From Candidatus Buchananbacteria bacterium (GTDB taxonomy: Bacteria > Patescibacteriota > Patescibacteriia > 2-01-FULL-39-33), in the NCBI GenBank assembly GCA_903888345.1, contig CAISTG010000038.1, positions 1 through 55,598 of the forward strand: DNA of 55,598 nucleotides, read 5' to 3'. The position numbers and the translations under genes were made by a program. Each line of letters begins with the position of its first letter. Position 1 is the first letter of the stretch. Below are positions 44,409 to 55,365 of this stretch, piece after piece. A model generated the notes under the pieces. That model had not been told where the DNA came from and ran no database searches. It saw only the letters and a program-made list of their open reading frames with translations.

Positions 44409-45263
44409 TTAAAAAATGTATCTGATGCCTTGCTTGGCATAGCCTACAAAGTCACTGACGTCATGCTTATCAAAGTTATCATCATAATGTTTGAGTAGCA
44501 TTTTCTTTTTTATTTCCGGTGGCAACTGTTTCAAGTCAGTTAGCGGTGCATGGACGGCACCGGGGAAAAACTGAACGTCATGGAACATCATCTCAGAGCG
44601 ATCGGCATACAGTTCAATCAACTCCCGATCGAATTTAGTGTCACCAGAATAGAAGACACGGTCATCGATCAAAAGTCCATAGCTTAAAAAGGCCGCTTCC
44701 CAATTTTTGGCTTGCTCGGGAATATGGACCGTGCGGAAGATTTCCAAATGAATGCCTTCATAATCAAGCTCAAAAGTTTCTCGCGGTTGATGCGTTTTCC
44801 AGCCGGGATGAATAATATCAAAGAGATCAGTAACCATCATGCTATGGCCATCACTAATCGCTTCTTCATTCCATTCCAGCCCGCCGCGCAGCGTATTATC
44901 CCAGAGGACCCGCTGATATTCTCGACAAATAATCATTTTGATTTTCGGATGATTGAGTAGTGGCCGGCCGATGTAACGATTTTGTAAAGCCAGGCACTCA
45001 AAACCGCCGACATGATCGGCATGAGAGTGGGTGGGCAAAACGCAACGGATATCTGTTGGCTTTAAACGTGTAGTTTTGGCAATAGCCATTTTACCATCGG
45101 CGCCGAAATCTACCAATAAGTGTGCCTGACCTTTGATAATCAGCGCGCACGTATTAAAATGGCGGGTCGCGTTGGCCGATCCGGTACCAATAAAGAATAG
45201 TTCTAATTCTCCGTTGTTCGTTAAAGAGAGCGTATCTTTTTTCAGTAACCGTTTGGTTTTCAT
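44409..45263 (-). CDS. Metallo-beta-lactamase fold hydrolase (RNase Z-like)
   Basis: A 284-residue protein. FFIGTGSANATRHFNTCALI opens the fold; the metal motif HSHADH (79-84) with VGG, a later SGDTKFD and a His near HYDDNF supply two metal sites. The overall pattern is closest to RNase Z/phosphodiesterase-like members, but the tRNA-processing exosite is not evident. It could cut RNA, a cyclic nucleotide or another phosphoester. A GGAGG site precedes the ATG. It follows the glycosyltransferase gene after 102 nt containing a GC-rich hairpin. Confidence 0.75.
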   Translation of the reverse strand: MKTKRLLKKDTLSLTNNGELELFFIGTGSANATRHFNTCALIIKGQAHLLVDFGADGKMAIAKTTRLKPTDIRCVLPTHSHADHVGGFECLALQNRYIGRPLLNHPKIKMIICREYQRVLWDNTLRGGLEWNEEAISDGHSMMVTDLFDIIHPGWKTHQPRETFELDYEGIHLEIFRTVHIPEQAKNWEAAFLSYGLLIDDRVFYSGDTKFDRELIELYADRSEMMFHDVQFFPGAVHAPLTDLKQLPPEIKKKMLLKHYDDNFDKHDVSDFVGYAKQGIRYIF

Positions 45264-46698: not shown

Positions 46699-48306
46699 TT
46701 AGACGGAGGCTTGGAAGGCTTGCTTGCCTTCCGAGTTGGCAACAAGCGGCATGAGCTCACCGTTGAGGGTGATAATCACAGCGTCGTTGGGCACAAATCC
46801 ATCGAGTGATACGTTGCCATTGGTGACAACGGTACAGCGCAAGATTCGGCTAATATTTGACCGAAACTGCGTGACCGTCCCAGAGGCGATACCCTGCGAG
46901 GAGACGTCCCAAAGTTCGCGTTCAATCCAAACCGCCGAAGGCTGATACAGTTCCAGCCCGATATGACCGCTGGCCGGGGCGTTCGTGGCAGCGAGTGTCA
47001 GGTAGGTCCCATTCCAAACGAGGTCGATCCGGAGCTTCTTGGTATCGGCATTGGTCGCGACGTGCACCGTACGGGTAATCGAGCTGGCGTTGCCGGCACG
47101 ATCAACTGCATGGTACGTCAAGACATAGTTCCCAACGACGGTCACATTAACGTTGCCAGTTACGGTAACGTTCACAACACCGTCGACGGCATCGTAAGCG
47201 GTGGCGCCCGGGTCAACCCAGACTCCGCCGACGATCAAATTGACCGTAGCCGAACCATTCAGCGTTATCACGGGAGGCGTAACGTCACCAACTGGCGGCG
47301 TCACGGCCCTAAACTTGGCGACGACCTTGACGGTTTCGCTGTTCATCTGCACCGAGGCGCTGACACTGGTAGTACCCAGTTCATCGTTCACTGTCCAATC
47401 CACGAATTCGAATCCGGCATTGGCATTGGCCTGAAGGCTAACGTCTTTGCCGTACTCATACTCGACGAGGGAGGGGTTAACGGTGACGCTGCCAGCTCCC
47501 GGAGGGGAGATGGAAACGATCAGCTTTGACATGTTCGACTTAAAAACGGCGATCAGAAGCACGTGGCCATCCATCTTGACAGATGCGTTGGCATCCAACC
47601 AAGGCGATTCGTCCGTGTTAACGGTCCAGTGGTCAAAGATGAAGCCTTCGTTGGCCACAGCCTGGACATCGACAGTAACACCGGCAGCGTAGAGATCCTG
47701 ATTCGGACTCACGCTAATTCCGCCGGCATTGGCAGGCGAAACCATGGTCGAGAGATGATACAGACCGGTTGGCGGCGGCGTTATGCCGTAGTGCCCGGGA
47801 CCGTAAAAAAGGGTCATGGCACTGCGACCATTACCACCAATAACGGTTAGAATGATCCGGTCGACAGCGTCGCCCGGCTTCAGACCGATGTTGAAGGTAT
47901 CATCGTTCAGGTTCTCGCCGATCATGGTGGCAATCGTGCCACCGATAGCGGCTGCAGCTGTTCCTCCCAGCAAGATCACGCCAGTGCAAGTCAGACACTT
48001 TTCGGCGTCTGCACTCTTTGCGGTGGCCTTGGTGGCGGGGAAGATGTTAATCGGTCTGGACACAGTCTCGCCCACCAGGAAAACTTCTCCCGTGGCTCGA
48101 CCAAACCCGTTGCCTCCCTGATAGGTCATGGAGACCTCAGCTCGGGCATCGACGACCGAACCCAAAGGGTTCAGGGTTGTCTGGACCGGATAGCCGGCCT
48201 CATTCAGGGTGTTCTGCATCACGGTCAGGTTGGAAGTGTCGGGGCAGCCTGTCAGGCATACTCCCAGTGACATCAATACGACGGCCAGTAACAGAGTCTT
48301 CTTCAT
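46699..48306 (-). CDS. Lipoprotein with InlB-type repeats and a DUF5011-like Ig domain
   Basis: A 535-residue lipoprotein. The signal MKKTLLLAVVLMSLGVCLTGC ends in the lipobox LTGC (Cys21). After an N-terminal domain with one internal hydrophobic, Gly/Ala-rich stretch (about 100-127), two InlB B-like repeats follow (about 190-260 and 262-335; VDVQAVANEGFIFDHWTVN and VSLQANANAGFEFVDWTVN). Then comes a Cry22Aa/DUF5011-type Ig domain (about 345-425; DVTPPVITLNGSATVNLIVG, VTYHAVDRAGN-like) and a C-terminal beta domain. It is a likely surface adhesin. Base composition is markedly GC-richer than its neighbours, with its own promoter, AGGAG site and terminator; this suggests transfer from elsewhere. 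Confidence 0.8.
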   Translation of the reverse strand: MKKTLLLAVVLMSLGVCLTGCPDTSNLTVMQNTLNEAGYPVQTTLNPLGSVVDARAEVSMTYQGGNGFGRATGEVFLVGETVSRPINIFPATKATAKSADAEKCLTCTGVILLGGTAAAAIGGTIATMIGENLNDDTFNIGLKPGDAVDRIILTVIGGNGRSAMTLFYGPGHYGITPPPTGLYHLSTMVSPANAGGISVSPNQDLYAAGVTVDVQAVANEGFIFDHWTVNTDESPWLDANASVKMDGHVLLIAVFKSNMSKLIVSISPPGAGSVTVNPSLVEYEYGKDVSLQANANAGFEFVDWTVNDELGTTSVSASVQMNSETVKVVAKFRAVTPPVGDVTPPVITLNGSATVNLIVGGVWVDPGATAYDAVDGVVNVTVTGNVNVTVVGNYVLTYHAVDRAGNASSITRTVHVATNADTKKLRIDLVWNGTYLTLAATNAPASGHIGLELYQPSAVWIERELWDVSSQGIASGTVTQFRSNISRILRCTVVTNGNVSLDGFVPNDAVIITLNGELMPLVANSEGKQAFQASV

Positions 48307-48592: not shown

Positions 48593-49753
48593 TTATTTAA
48601 TCTTACCACCGCTAGCATCCTCGGGAATTTTGGAGGTTAGATTTGGCAGACTGAAATTCATGGTTTCTCCGGTGAATTTGTCTTGGCCGCTAGCCTTGAT
48701 ATTCTGCAATAAGTCCGCTAGTTGGCCAGTTTGACCCTTGGTTGGGATCAATTCCACCTCAAAAGCGGTGCCGACCTGTGGATAACTTACGCTCGGGGCG
48801 ACTAATTTTTGGATTTCCCAGCTGACGGTATTATTATCGCTGGCGAATTTAACGGGTTGCGGTGAGGTAGCACTCAGACGACCAGTGGGTCGAACGTTGG
48901 CTGGCAGGGTTGCTGTCAGTTGAACATTTTCAGCGTCGTTATAATCAGTTTCGGCGGCAAAGAAAATCCAGTACTTGGTTGCTTGTCCCACGATTGGTGG
49001 TAATGGACCGACGCCTAATTGGTCGCCTTCGTTTAGTCGATATTTAGCGACAGCGGTTAGAACCAGATTGGTGGAAATTTTTTGGGTGAGTTGCTGGCTA
49101 ATTGCCGTTAGCTCAGGCGTACCGGTTTTGGTATCATGGTAGGTTGCAGTTAGTTTGGCTTGAACTATATAGTTGTTAGGATTGGTAGGTTGTTCAACTT
49201 TAGTGTTCAGATTTAACTGATACTTAATGGTGCCGGTTTGACCTGGATTAATTGCTTTCAGCTCCGGATACTTGGTTTGGTCCAAGACAATTTTTTTGTT
49301 GATACCAGGAATCTCACTTTCTAAATTTAGAATCACCATTACCTTAGTGGCGACAGCGGCACCGTCATTTTTGTAATTGATCGAATAGGTAAAGGGAACG
49401 CCAGTTTTGATGTGGTCGCGATCTTTGACTAAGTCCAGCGTTAAATGTGGTTGCTGGTTGATGATTAAGACGCCTTGATCGAAATAACTCTGGATGGAGT
49501 TTTTGGCGGGATGCGTCAACAGAAAAATGTTTAGGCCGAAGAGACTAATAATGATGAGCAGTAGTATCACGTCGGCAATTAAGTGTGCGAGCCAGAAATT
49601 ATTAGTTGGATGATAAAACTTTTGGTAACGATTTTTGGCCGGAACCAAAAAAACGTTTAAGGTTTTAATAAATATACCATTAGCTGGAGCTGGAGTGGCC
49701 GGACTTAATGGCCGCGTTTCGACTTTGATTATTTTGTTTGATGTTTTTTTCAT
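48593..49753 (-). CDS. Membrane-anchored protein with DUF11/CARDB-like beta domains
   Basis: A 386-residue protein. A Pro-rich cytoplasmic N-terminus is followed by one membrane helix (about 58-82) and a large extracellular part with repeated immunoglobulin-like units. Typical sequences are KTGVPFTYSINYKNDGAAVA and NPGQTGTIKYQLNLNTKVEQ, then AENVQLTATLPANVRPTGRL. This is the pattern of DUF11/CARDB adhesion domains. It is the last gene of the exopolysaccharide operon, 2 nt after the fusion gene. It may anchor or organise the glycan. The function is inferred. Confidence 0.65.
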   Translation of the reverse strand: MKKTSNKIIKVETRPLSPATPAPANGIFIKTLNVFLVPAKNRYQKFYHPTNNFWLAHLIADVILLLIIISLFGLNIFLLTHPAKNSIQSYFDQGVLIINQQPHLTLDLVKDRDHIKTGVPFTYSINYKNDGAAVATKVMVILNLESEIPGINKKIVLDQTKYPELKAINPGQTGTIKYQLNLNTKVEQPTNPNNYIVQAKLTATYHDTKTGTPELTAISQQLTQKISTNLVLTAVAKYRLNEGDQLGVGPLPPIVGQATKYWIFFAAETDYNDAENVQLTATLPANVRPTGRLSATSPQPVKFASDNNTVSWEIQKLVAPSVSYPQVGTAFEVELIPTKGQTGQLADLLQNIKASGQDKFTGETMNFSLPNLTSKIPEDASGGKIK

Positions 49754-49755
49754 AG

Positions 49756-52700
49756 TTATTTAGCGTTAGCGGTAAAGACACCACTTGATAGAGCAACGAC
49801 TTCTACTTTGCCATCACCATCAACATCAGCCACACTGACGTTGACGCCTTGGCGGCTATTGGTATCAAAAGCAAACCACTCTTTGATTAGTTGTCCGGAA
49901 GCATTAAAGACTTTGACGTGAGGGCCGCCAGTGACGCCAGCACCAGTAACAACCTGATTGGTATTGTCGCCACTTAAATCACCGCAAGCAACATTAACGC
50001 CACCACGGAAATTTGAGTTATAAGCAAACCATTCTTTCAATAATTTTCCGGTTGAAGTAAACACTTTAATATGGGGACCGCCACCAGATCCAGCGCCCGT
50101 AATAATTTCAAATTCGCCGTCATTATTTAGATCACAGGCAGCAACACTAGCGCCGAGATTCTTCCAGAGAGGGGAATAGGCAGTGAAACTTTTGTTGGTG
50201 TCGATTAAATTATGATCAAAATATTTAATTAAGTTGGAACCACCCTTTTCTGGAGCGACAACAATTGATAACTCCGAATCAGACGGCAGTTTGGTTAAGG
50301 CTAGATTAAAGCCACCGCGGAAGTTAAGACCATAAGGGTAAACGGTTTTAAGATTATTACCATTCTTATCAAAGAGTGAAATGGAGCTTAGTCCGGCGGT
50401 GAGGATTTCATTCTCGCCATCGCCATTAAGATCAGTTTTAATAACTTTGTTGCCGCCGGTAAAGTTGGAATTATAGACGAAGAAACCCGTACGCTTAACT
50501 TGTCCGCTACCACTAAAAATTCTAGCGAAAGAACCATTAGTATAAACAGCGTCCGTTAATTCATTTAAAGGTTTTAATAAGATAATAGCGTCCCCAGCGG
50601 GTAGCGTCAGTTGATTGACAATCGAACCATCATTGGTGGTTTTGTCTTGAGTGCCACGGATTTTTTCTAATTCAGCGTCGAAAGAAAGTTTTTGTGCTTG
50701 TTGACTAGAATTTAATAAAACGACGCCGTTTTCAAAATTGCGTTGCCAAACAGCGGCACTCCAAGCTTTGTTGTTGGTTGTAAGATTGATAGGATTGCCG
50801 GTTGGTTGACCGAGACTGACATTATATTCATCATACCACCATAATTGTTCACGCAAGTTCGGACCATAGTCAAAGCTGTAATAGGCGTTAAACATTAAGG
50901 CGCTAGCCAGGCCAAAGCGCATGGTTTGGTAATCATTTTGGTTACCGGTATTATTGCTATCGGAATTGATAATGTTAAAACGGGGCTGATAGCCGGAATT
51001 GGTAGAAATTTCTAATTTTGGCATTTGGCCATTAAAGCCACCCTCCCAATATTCGGGGAAACCTTCTAGCTCTCGGCCATTGGTGTATTGTGAATAGTCA
51101 CCATCACCATTGCCAATAATTAGATAACGAGAACCGATGGAGGCGCGAAGTTTTTCGAAAAAGGTGTTGTAGGATTTCTGCCAAGCACTATTAACCACTG
51201 CGGCAGAATCGGCGCGGCCATCGTTATTGATATCGATGTTATTGTTGAGGCTCGAAACATTCTGCCAAGTATTATCGAATAACAAGCCATCCCAAAGTCC
51301 CGAGGACAAGAGTTGATTGGTGTAGAAGTTAACTAAATAATCGGCATAAGTTTGGCCATTGTTATCTTTGGTGCCCAGGTTCATCATTACGTTGCCCGCC
51401 CAAAAACTAATGTCTTCACCGTTAGCGGTTTTTAGATGCCAGATGTTTTGATCACCTTTGGCGAGTTGATGCCACATACCGTAACCCGCCGGCTCAATCG
51501 AGTTGAGTCGGCTCGTCGGCATTTCATTGGCCGAGGTATAGGCTAAGATAACTATTTTTGGATTCAATTTTCTAATGTCGCGAATGGCATCAGCGCTATA
51601 AGTCTGCGCTGTCATATCGAGAACAAGTACGTCCCATTTGGCAAGCTCTTTAGCAACTTCCGGAGTAATGGGATTGCGCCAGTAAAGATTAACCAGGCGG
51701 GGATAGTCATGATTCGGGATCAAATAGGCCTGGCCTTGTTCAATATTGATCTGGTAAAAGGGGATGGTTAATAAGGCTGATAAAGTGACTAGCAATATCA
51801 AATTCACCAGCAACATATTGATGCGGCGCAAGGGCTTTTTGTGGCGAGTGATCGCTGTTTGGTAAATGGCTAGTATCTTATGGTAGTAAGCTTGGCCATC
51901 GTATTTTTGGCTTTCCTGTTGTGCTTGATCGCCTAAATAGTTTCTTAAGGTTTCGTCAGAAAGTAATCGTGTTAGTTGTTCTTTTAGGGCACCTAAATCA
52001 GACACTTCATAAAGCAGTCCTGTTTTTTCATTTTCAATTAGTTCAGGAATTGCTCCGACTTTGGAGGCAATAACCGCCTTGCCCAAAGACATGGCTTCGA
52101 GTACGGTCAAACCGAAAGTTTCGTGGACGCGAGAGCAATTGACGACAAAGAGTGAGTTCTTAATTAACTCAATAATCTCGCCCCGATTCTTTTGGCCAAC
52201 TAATTCAATTTTGTCGGCTAGGCCGAAGTCATTAATCTGTTGCTGTAATTGCGTTTCATTGGGTCCGGCACCGGCGATTTTTAGTTTTAGACCATTAACG
52301 CCAATATTGGCAAAGGCAGTAATCAGACCGCTAAAACCCTTACTTTCATCGAGGCGGCCGTAACTGAAAATATATTTTTCGCTGCTAGTCGCTACTGGTG
52401 CCAATGCTGCTAGTAAGAATTCATCAGGCACGAAATGAGGTTGAACAACTATTTTGTTCGGATCAAAACCATGTTTAACTAGTTGGTTTTTCACAAACTC
52501 ACTGGGCGCGATAAAGAGGTCAACGTTGTTTTGGTAAACTTTAAGATAGCGATGAAGCCAGAATTCAAGGTGCAGAATCAGATCAGTTAAGAGTGAATCT
52601 TTATGTAGAAAAGCGCGACCGTCAGCGCGAAGAGTATAGTCGTGGCGAATCAATTTAAAATCATGAACCGTCATAACAACGGGCACACCGAGACGCTTAA

Positions 52701-53034
52701 GTGTCGGTAAGATTGAGGGTGAGAGTTGATGATAAATATTATGAATGTGGGCAATATCTGGTTTGGTTTCTAGTACTACCTTTTGAATTAAACGACTCGC
52801 CTTGAAGGACCAAAATAAACGCGGTAAACGATAGAGGGATTTAAGGGAAAAGCCACTGAGATCTAAATCTTCAATAAAGAGTGATTCTTGTTCGCAGGGG
52901 ATATTTAAAGGATTTTTTTGAGAAAAACAAACCACCCCTTGGCCGTTGTTCTCCAAGAGTTTCTTGAGTGCTAAGAGGTGGATTTCAGCTCCGCCCTTGG
53001 CGTAAAGATATTTGTTGATCTGTAAAATCTTCAT
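49756..53034 (-). CDS. Fusion: glycosyltransferase, membrane helix, putative glycoside hydrolase, FG-GAP repeats
   Basis: A 1092-residue protein in one uninterrupted frame. Residues 1-395 are a GT-B glycosyltransferase of family 4 (MKILQINKYLYAKGGAEIH; EX7E in VHETFGLTVLEAMSLG). A membrane helix lies at about 405-427. Residues about 440-815 resemble putative glycoside hydrolases of the GHL15 kind (WDVLVLDMTAQTYSADAI, SGLWDGLLFDNTWQNVS, ELEGFPEYWEGG), a TIM barrel with acidic residues at strand ends. Residues about 830-1092 are FG-GAP/VCBS repeats (DLNGDGENEILTAG, DLNNDGEFEIITGAG) that bind calcium. The transferase would be inside and the hydrolase outside, so one chain could build and trim the same glycan. 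The start overlaps no gene; wzy ends 4 nt upstream. Confidence 0.82.
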   Translation of the reverse strand: MKILQINKYLYAKGGAEIHLLALKKLLENNGQGVVCFSQKNPLNIPCEQESLFIEDLDLSGFSLKSLYRLPRLFWSFKASRLIQKVVLETKPDIAHIHNIYHQLSPSILPTLKRLGVPVVMTVHDFKLIRHDYTLRADGRAFLHKDSLLTDLILHLEFWLHRYLKVYQNNVDLFIAPSEFVKNQLVKHGFDPNKIVVQPHFVPDEFLLAALAPVATSSEKYIFSYGRLDESKGFSGLITAFANIGVNGLKLKIAGAGPNETQLQQQINDFGLADKIELVGQKNRGEIIELIKNSLFVVNCSRVHETFGLTVLEAMSLGKAVIASKVGAIPELIENEKTGLLYEVSDLGALKEQLTRLLSDETLRNYLGDQAQQESQKYDGQAYYHKILAIYQTAITRHKKPLRRINMLLVNLILLVTLSALLTIPFYQINIEQGQAYLIPNHDYPRLVNLYWRNPITPEVAKELAKWDVLVLDMTAQTYSADAIRDIRKLNPKIVILAYTSANEMPTSRLNSIEPAGYGMWHQLAKGDQNIWHLKTANGEDISFWAGNVMMNLGTKDNNGQTYADYLVNFYTNQLLSSGLWDGLLFDNTWQNVSSLNNNIDINNDGRADSAAVVNSAWQKSYNTFFEKLRASIGSRYLIIGNGDGDYSQYTNGRELEGFPEYWEGGFNGQMPKLEISTNSGYQPRFNIINSDSNNTGNQNDYQTMRFGLASALMFNAYYSFDYGPNLREQLWWYDEYNVSLGQPTGNPINLTTNNKAWSAAVWQRNFENGVVLLNSSQQAQKLSFDAELEKIRGTQDKTTNDGSIVNQLTLPAGDAIILLKPLNELTDAVYTNGSFARIFSGSGQVKRTGFFVYNSNFTGGNKVIKTDLNGDGENEILTAGLSSISLFDKNGNNLKTVYPYGLNFRGGFNLALTKLPSDSELSIVVAPEKGGSNLIKYFDHNLIDTNKSFTAYSPLWKNLGASVAACDLNNDGEFEIITGAGSGGGPHIKVFTSTGKLLKEWFAYNSNFRGGVNVACGDLSGDNTNQVVTGAGVTGGPHVKVFNASGQLIKEWFAFDTNSRQGVNVSVADVDGDGKVEVVALSSGVFTANAK

Positions 53035-53038
53035 GGTA

Positions 53039-54484
53039 TTAAGCTAATTCCTTATTGACTGGTTTATTATTAATTAGGGTCGCAGTTCGCAGTAAGCCGA
53101 GAATGATCCAGAGCCAGATACCCATTAAATTGGTTTCTAAGTAGGGTTGGAAAATACTGGAAATCAGAAAGACGGCTAGTGCACCGATCAGACCTAAATA
53201 GTATGGTGCTAAATCGGCAGATTCAAATAGCTTCTTTCTGATACTTAAAAGGACGGCGAGAATAAATAGTCCTAAAACCGCGATTCCTAACAGACCGGTT
53301 TGGACCATAATCGCTAGGGGTGAATTATGGATATTGCGAAGTTCTTCAAAGTCTTGCCAGTCACCAGTATCAACTAAGATTTGATGACCAAAACCAACAC
53401 CGTAAAATGGATTTTTTAGCCATTCGATTTTGGCTTGACCCCAAGTGTCTTCACGCCAACTGGCTGAGCTATCCTCACTGAGATTAACGACAGTAGCCGC
53501 TCGTTCGATCAGTGCATCAAGATTCGCCGTGACTTTATCCATTGATCCCGAGAAGTATAATAAATTTGAAGAAAGAAAAATAAATAGCACGAGAGCGGCC
53601 AAAGTTAAGCCGATTTTAAGGGCATAGCCACTAAAAACTTTTTTGTGTTGTTTATCGATGATTATAAATATTGACCCTAAACCAACGACCACCGCTAGCC
53701 ATAAATGGCGCATCAAAGAAACGCCGATACCTAAAGCCCAAAATGTCATTACGATCATTGCTAGAGTCGTTGAGCGTAAGCGATTATATAATAATAAACT
53801 GACACCCAACATGGCGGCTAGAGTTAAGTAGAAAGCATGAGTGCCAGCGAGATATCGAGTACCGGTGGTAGAAAGCGGCGTGAACTCGGTCCATAAACCA
53901 TTGCCTCGAATAAAGCCAATAAAGATAAAGGCGATTAATCCGGTTGCTACCAGCAAGATTAAATGAATGATGTTTTTTAATTTTTTGCCACTGTTAACGG
54001 TATAAATGATTAATAGGTAAAGCAGGGCATAGATGAAATAGTTTTTAAAAGAAGAAAAGGCGACCTCGAATTTAGCGTTAATATCAAAGACGCTACGCAA
54101 TAAATAACTGGCAGTTAAAATTAACCAAACCGCCAGGGCCTTTTCGGGCCAACCCCAGATAAAGCGAAAGGTTTTATTTTTGGTTTTATAACTGAAGGCT
54201 AGTGCGAGAAAAGAATAGGCAATGATAACGTCGAGTAAATAGAATTTATAGGTGGTGTCGTCGAAGACTAAACCCTGTAAGGTAAAATAACGTTCAAAAA
54301 CCATGGTTAAGGCAATTAATAAGCCAACACCCAAATAAGCACGATCTGGCAAAATACAAACTCCGGCCAGCACAGCAAAGGCTAGATAAAATATTGGTAA
54401 GGGGCCATAAGCAATCATCGCGATAATGATACCGCTTAAATAGAGATAGGCCAGGAAGTTAATGATTTTAGATTTAGCAATCAT
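53039..54484 (-). CDS. O-antigen ligase/polymerase family (Wzy-like) membrane protein
   Basis: A 481-residue protein with about 12 membrane helices and the Wzy_C (O-antigen ligase) signature near residues 375-420: a periplasmic loop with WREDTWGQAKIEWLKNPFYG, then GFGHQI...RNIHNSPLAIMVQTG. It would polymerise or transfer undecaprenyl-linked glycan repeats outside the membrane. It sits in the exopolysaccharide unit between the Wzz-like and fusion genes. Confidence 0.82.
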   Translation of the reverse strand: MIAKSKIINFLAYLYLSGIIIAMIAYGPLPIFYLAFAVLAGVCILPDRAYLGVGLLIALTMVFERYFTLQGLVFDDTTYKFYLLDVIIAYSFLALAFSYKTKNKTFRFIWGWPEKALAVWLILTASYLLRSVFDINAKFEVAFSSFKNYFIYALLYLLIIYTVNSGKKLKNIIHLILLVATGLIAFIFIGFIRGNGLWTEFTPLSTTGTRYLAGTHAFYLTLAAMLGVSLLLYNRLRSTTLAMIVMTFWALGIGVSLMRHLWLAVVVGLGSIFIIIDKQHKKVFSGYALKIGLTLAALVLFIFLSSNLLYFSGSMDKVTANLDALIERAATVVNLSEDSSASWREDTWGQAKIEWLKNPFYGVGFGHQILVDTGDWQDFEELRNIHNSPLAIMVQTGLLGIAVLGLFILAVLLSIRKKLFESADLAPYYLGLIGALAVFLISSIFQPYLETNLMGIWLWIILGLLRTATLINNKPVNKELA

Positions 54485-54540: not shown

Positions 54541-55365
54541 TTATTGATTTGGTGTATTAGGAAGGTTTTCTTCGTAATATTGCTCCAGCCAAGGATTATT
54601 AGTTGTTCTGGCGATGGTTTGCTCTTCTATCGGTGGTGTAGGAATTACGGTAGCCGCTGGTTGCGCACTAGCGATAGGAGCAGTGTAGACCGGTTGAGTC
54701 ACCGGAGTTGTTGGATAGGTGTTGGCCGGTTGGTAGGCTTTAACCTTCTTATTGAAAACAAATAGACGATGATTAGGAAAGATAATAATAAAAGTGAAAC
54801 CCAGTAAGATACCGGCTAGTAAGCCTAGTAAACCGTCACTAATAATTTTAGTGGTGGACCAGCTTTCAAAAATTGAGGGGACATCAATCATTTTCAGGGT
54901 TACGCGATCGGCCGAACCGTCATACAGACCGTGCTGACTAATAATGACAGAACTAATGTTGGTAGCCAAAAGGTTGGTTTGATAACGATCATCACCAAAG
55001 ACATCAATTGTTACAATACCCTTATTATCAGAAATACTAGTTTTGACAGCTTGTTTCCAGGCCCGTTGTTTTTGCTCTGGGTTTAAGCCGAGACTATCAA
55101 TCAAATTAGTATCGTTTTTATAGACAGAGTCAATGAAAGAATCGGAATAGATGACTTCACCCAAAATACCAGTAATGTAGTTAGCGGTTTTGCTGGCAGT
55201 ATAGGTGTCAATATTGGTTTGGTTAAAGACAGCCAAGAGTTTGACGGTTGATTTATAGCGAGGTGTTTGCCATAAACTGACGGAAAAGGCTAATAGGCCT
55301 AGTAACAGGGAAATAAAGCCGACCGTTAAGATGTTTTTAAGATTGAAATGTTTGTTTGTTGACAT
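54541..55365 (-). CDS. Wzz/chain-length determinant-like protein
   Basis: A 274-residue protein with two membrane helices (about 12-32 and 178-200) flanking an extracellular domain (about 35-175), the layout of polysaccharide co-polymerases (YRSTVKLLAVFNQTNIDTYT near the start). The C-terminus is a Pro/Thr-rich cytoplasmic tail without a kinase domain, so any BY-kinase partner must be encoded elsewhere. It would set glycan chain length with the Wzy-like protein. It is first in the operon, behind a perfect promoter. Confidence 0.75.
   Translation of the reverse strand: MSTNKHFNLKNILTVGFISLLLGLLAFSVSLWQTPRYKSTVKLLAVFNQTNIDTYTASKTANYITGILGEVIYSDSFIDSVYKNDTNLIDSLGLNPEQKQRAWKQAVKTSISDNKGIVTIDVFGDDRYQTNLLATNISSVIISQHGLYDGSADRVTLKMIDVPSIFESWSTTKIISDGLLGLLAGILLGFTFIIIFPNHRLFVFNKKVKAYQPANTYPTTPVTQPVYTAPIASAQPAATVIPTPPIEEQTIARTTNNPWLEQYYEENLPNTPNQ

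Follow-up and report, generated by a model that had tools for sequence, protein, structure and literature searches.

The DNA analysed here (hereafter, the window) is the 55,598-nucleotide contig CAISTG010000038.1, which belongs to a 1.39 Mb genome of the Patescibacteria (Ca. Buchananbacteria). On its minus strand, positions 49756-53034 of the assembled sequence form a single frame that opens with ATG and runs for 1092 codons with zero internal stops. This frame encodes a GT4 glycosyltransferase, a membrane helix, a GHL15 glycoside hydrolase and an FG-GAP region, in that order (Table 1). A first-pass annotation had proposed one continuous frame, which is borne out in the assembled sequence; the domains, membrane topology and surface-polysaccharide context that it described likewise hold, as judged by Pfam, structural models and neighbouring genes. 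Structure prediction had been suggested as a check, and AlphaFold models both halves with high confidence. Mean pLDDT is 93.9 for residues 407-1092 and 93.0 for the full-length product, with low confidence mainly at the junction (~403-433) and also at the extreme C-terminus. The full-length model contains a helix at 407-432, and its pTM of 0.64 is as expected for two independent bodies linked by a flexible tether.

Table 1. Features of the fused frame and its neighbours (window coordinates)
Feature	Coordinates	Strand	Basis
Fused ORF, 1092 aa: GT4, membrane helix, GHL15 hydrolase, FG-GAP	49756..53034	(-)	Open frame, Pfam, AF2 model
GT4 glycosyltransferase, residues 1-398, complete GT-B domain, EX7E motif E305-E313	51841..53034	(-)	Pfam, EX7E, alignment of 20 GTs
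Junction, residues 399-406 (KKPLRRIN), basic stretch ahead of helix; site of GT stop codon in homologues	51817..51840	(-)	Sequence, GT alignment
Possible internal start TTG (residue 402) for a separate hydrolase	51829..51831	(-)	Sequence, inference
Possible internal start ATG (residue 407)	51814..51816	(-)	Sequence, inference
TGA stop, +1 frame, just past ATG-407	51804..51806	(-)	Three-frame translation
Membrane helix, residues 407-432, equivalent to signal peptide/anchor of separate GHL15 proteins	51739..51816	(-)	Models, homologue N-termini
GHL15 (PF14885) TIM-barrel glycoside hydrolase, residues 488-771	50722..51573	(-)	Pfam 9e-27; profile match to GH168 structure 9nhf 1e-11; Foldseek
D587, predicted nucleophile	51274..51276	(-)	Invariant 51/51; aligned to Asp of GH168 catalytic pair
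E657, predicted acid/base	51064..51066	(-)	Invariant 51/51; aligned to Glu of GH168 catalytic pair
FG-GAP/propeller-type beta region, residues ~827-1084, ~20 strands (~5 repeats), Ca-loop-like DxDxDG motifs	49783..50556	(-)	Pfam, model, integrin and NHL matches
Wzz-like membrane protein, first gene of cluster	54541..55365	(-)	Pfam Wzz 0.008, below cut-off; conserved position
Wzy_C / O-antigen ligase-like membrane protein, upstream gene	53039..54484	(-)	Pfam 2e-11, above cut-off; conserved position
Single-helix surface protein, DUF11-like domain, downstream gene	48593..49753	(-)	Pfam DUF11 5e-5, just below cut-off; conserved position

The gene cluster and the parts of the frame

The fused ORF lies third in a compact minus-strand cluster, after the Wzz-like and Wzy_C genes and before the DUF11-like gene, with intergenic gaps of 2-56 bases. 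Describing this as a Wzz/Wzy operon is fair: Wzy_C is recognised above the Pfam cut-off, and Wzz, a weak Pfam match, by synteny and topology. The order Wzz-like, Wzy_C, GT4, GHL15-FG-GAP, DUF11-like is retained in the sole genus-mate and in other Buchananbacteria.

Other genes of the region also drew our attention. At 46699-48306 (-), the window carries a lipoprotein-like gene with InlB-B-type and Ig-like domains, whose GC content is 0.53-0.58 against ~0.41 around it; homologues occupy the same place in six Buchananbacteria loci (L029, L030, L031, L049, L105, L106) and are GC-elevated where measured. The gene at 44409-45263 (-) is predicted to encode a metallo-beta-lactamase-fold protein, with a Pfam Anti-Pycsar_Apyc1 match of 100 bits against a cut-off of 50. 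Near the cluster in genome G019 lies another GC-rich (0.60) gene (L104:560-2461), which encodes an Asp/Gly-repeat protein with MopE-type metal-binding motifs.

The glycosyltransferase half has the GT-B fold, the EX7E motif and both domains that define GT4 enzymes, Glycos_transf_1 (2e-37) and Glyco_transf_4 (2e-19), each above its curated cut-off. Both glutamates of E305-x7-E313 are invariant in 20 aligned GT homologues. These homologues stop at about window residue 393-402, right after the last helix, a few of them with short unrelated tails; judged by this alignment, the GT domain of the fused ORF is complete, its C-terminus falling exactly where homologues end. NCBIfam matches of this GT are all far below cut-offs, and NCBIfam gives no specific name for it or for its neighbour genes. 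A different Buchananbacteria genus has this GT4 gene (L030:4977-7004 and L031:4983-7004) with a C-terminal extension, identified in L030 as a SAM methyltransferase (676 aa in all); a separate GHL15 gene follows at both loci.

The hydrolase half matches the GHL15 model over its whole length (positions 1-271 of 271) at 95 bits, well above the cut-off of 27, and thus belongs to that family. A profile built from 51 homologues matches GH168 structures, 9nhf best (1e-11), and Foldseek likewise places GH168 enzymes at the top (TM 0.63-0.71 by target), ahead of weaker matches to GH114 and GH191 enzymes. For MeGH168, the predicted nucleophile is Asp167 and the predicted acid/base Glu237 (PMC12210190). 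D587 and E657 align with this pair, are invariant in 51 of 51 sequences and are spaced as in MeGH168, 70 residues apart, so the window's protein is likely an active retaining hydrolase, as far as sequence and model can tell. It resembles the GH168 endo-1,3-fucanases (Fun168A, MeGH168 9nhf, PbFucA 8rg3) in having a TIM barrel with the aligned Asp nucleophile and Glu acid/base of that family. It differs in that it bears an FG-GAP C-terminus and sits in a polysaccharide-synthesis cluster rather than a degradation locus. The structural alignment is only ~14-18% identical, and we rejected a formal placement in GH168 on the ground that this identity is too low.

The C-terminal ~250 residues consist of propeller-like FG-GAP repeats, with matches to integrin and NHL proteins in profile and Foldseek searches. 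FG-GAP_3 (3e-8) and FG-GAP (3e-7) both exceed their curated Pfam cut-offs and, together with the propeller-type matches of the predicted model, identify a propeller-type region of the FG-GAP/integrin kind, with Ca-loop-like motifs in its repeats.

Separate and fused pairs in relatives

Of 286 genomes sampled from the class, 124 encode GHL15 proteins of the window's type, as do 7 of the 10 genomes of the window's family, where the six besides the window measure 683-711 aa. Among the frames listed for the 286 genomes, GHL15 frames elsewhere in the class reach at most 824 aa, against 1095 in the window. In the full set of fetched loci, a GT4 gene lies directly upstream of 50 GHL15 frames, on the same strand; 49 of these pairs are separate and one, in the window, is fused. 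The separate pairs share both proteins and their order with the window (~46-56% identity within its family), and differ in consisting of two ORFs. They are tightly arranged: 25 overlap, 15 are separated by 0-50 bases and 9 by larger gaps. The overlaps comprise a few bases in a shifted frame. In the genus-mate, GT and hydrolase are separate as well, the GT stop lying 2 bases ahead of the hydrolase start. For the other 47 of 97 GHL15 frames, a GT4 directly upstream went undetected, with some contigs ending nearby and some GTs falling below the search threshold. In one group (L139, L140, L143, L152), the GHL15-FG-GAP gene follows an apparent seryl-tRNA synthetase gene (N-terminus MLDIKxIR, by eye) instead of GT4.

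The first-pass annotation had recommended a search for the same architecture in other genomes, and had named separate homologous genes, together with an assembly or frame error in the window, as the outcome that would count against its reading. The first part of this is indeed the outcome, since all 49 other adjacent pairs are separate: neither these pairs nor the listed frames of the 286 class genomes include a second fusion. A conserved GT-GH fusion family would show the fusion in more than one genome; here, one fused frame stands against 49 separate pairs. The first-pass idea of a design that physically links synthesis and trimming therefore does not generalise, even to the genus-mate. Four long GHL15 frames (G391, 1132 aa; G486, 972 aa; G548, 2920 aa; G013, 1507 aa) were rejected as candidates, as they lack this GT4 and have other architectures. 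G019, with an open frame of 912 aa, was also rejected; its genes are two separate ORFs. The fusion is a singleton, and the conserved gene pair behind it is the solid, little described and more useful finding. The literature in PMC on GHL15 is nearly empty, and the GT4-GHL15 pair was not found there.

Origin of the fused frame

Two complete genes, and nothing besides, make up the fused frame: the signal peptide or anchor that belongs to the hydrolase is the helix, which follows the GT tail directly, without a stop. Because the genes abut or overlap in relatives, a single event suffices to fuse them. Judging from the sequence, this could have been the loss of a stop codon, codons 399, 400 and 402 each being a single substitution away from one, or a 1-base indel that shifted the GT frame. 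We give an even chance to the reading that the fused ORF arose when neighbouring genes, both complete, were joined in frame within this lineage, and that it tethers two surface-glycan activities.

One caveat is that a single mutation or indel separates the fused state from the ancestral one, and a consensus error would yield the identical sequence. The organism may then have two overlapping genes like its relatives: the 49 other pairs are all separate, and in about half of them the genes share a few bases, read in different frames. The junction contains an AAAAA run, and the +1-frame TGA lies 10 bases beyond the start of ATG-407; a GT read in that frame would terminate there, overlapping the hydrolase start as in relatives. 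Over the ~12 codons that span the junction, codon usage shows no clear preference for frame 0. We nevertheless regard a one-base consensus or assembly error as unlikely. Both flanking frames are intact across ~3.3 kb, and if the assembly was built from short reads, single-base errors would be rare, as they are in general with such data. Moreover, the basic residues KKPLRR ahead of the helix lie upstream of ATG-407, contiguous and in phase with the GT tail; a hydrolase starting at ATG-407 would miss basic residues typical of homologous signal regions. This phasing is one of two small points that favour a true frame, the other being the GT-methyltransferase fusion noted above, which indicates that the GT4 gene can acquire fusion partners. 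It is also conceivable that the DNA is fused and two proteins are nonetheless made, whether by internal initiation at TTG-402 or ATG-407, which lie in frame where homologues start, or by a signal-peptidase cut beyond the helix (IEQGQA|YLIP), in keeping with the cleavable signal peptides of many homologues. By eye, neither start is preceded by an evident Shine-Dalgarno sequence, and the possible cleavage site is unusually distant from the hydrophobic core; such a two-protein outcome likewise seems improbable to us.

Proposed function and known counterparts

If the joined frame is translated as a single chain, its GT4 domain would remain cytoplasmic and add a sugar to a lipid-linked glycan. The former signal peptide or anchor of the hydrolase would serve as a type II membrane helix, as sequence and models suggest. 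Outside, the GHL15 barrel may cut or trim the glycan that the cell itself exports, much as PslG acts on Psl; to judge from conservation and fold, its mechanism would be retaining, like that of GH168, and would employ D587 and E657. The FG-GAP repeats may bind the glycan or another surface partner. Rather than creating a new pathway, the fusion would tether activities that are already side by side in relatives, often in overlapping genes. Tethering is no general requirement, since the majority of the homologous hydrolases seem to have cleavable signal peptides and to be secreted.

Whether fused or separate, the hydrolase is best read as self-acting, an enzyme that would trim or release the polymer made with the help of GT4. 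Alternatively, it may act on foreign glycans, of host or matrix, the operon merely coupling expression. Adhesion proteins commonly carry FG-GAP repeats, some GHL15 copies have no GT4 beside them, and the closest relatives to have been characterised are fucan-degrading marine enzymes of GH168. Against this stands the recurrent position of the gene directly behind GT4, which in Buchananbacteria lies inside the Wzy/Wzz cluster, and we consider foreign substrates rather unlikely.

The ways in which these reduced Patescibacteria make and modify the glycans on their surface are little known. The pairing of a GT4 gene with a GHL15-FG-GAP gene behind it, the latter with its invariant Asp/Glu pair, is a widespread module that lends itself to testing, and suggests a class of GH168-related hydrolases that act on the producer's own glycans. 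Should the fusion be confirmed, it would argue strongly that both proteins act on the same polymer in the same place.

Counterparts of such an arrangement exist in other systems. The psl exopolysaccharide operon of Pseudomonas aeruginosa encodes PslG, a membrane-localised hydrolase required for normal EPS production (PMC9075953). Like the window's hydrolase, it is a glycoside hydrolase encoded among synthesis genes; it is localised to the membrane, as predicted for the window's product, and its activity matters for the polymer. Unlike the window's hydrolase, PslG is the product of a separate gene, uses the catalytic pair E165/E276 and is not a GHL15 protein. The fungal alpha-1,3-glucan synthase Ags1 combines an intracellular synthase, a membrane segment and an extracellular hydrolase-type domain in one chain (PMC5753165). 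The first-pass annotation had called the design not commonly described; the fusion is seen in one genome only, and the inside-synthase/outside-hydrolase design has precedent in the Ags1 chain (PMC5753165). At the level of the ORF, the window shows this layout, which its protein may share. Ags1 differs in its GH13-type outside domain, its synthase family, its opposite domain order and its multi-pass export domain, and homology is not implied. Tentatively, and at somewhat less than even probability, the window's product may be an independent and recent counterpart of the Ags1 layout: a single-pass bacterial GT-hydrolase chain that co-locates synthesis and trimming of one glycan, and whose two-gene ancestor persists across the class.
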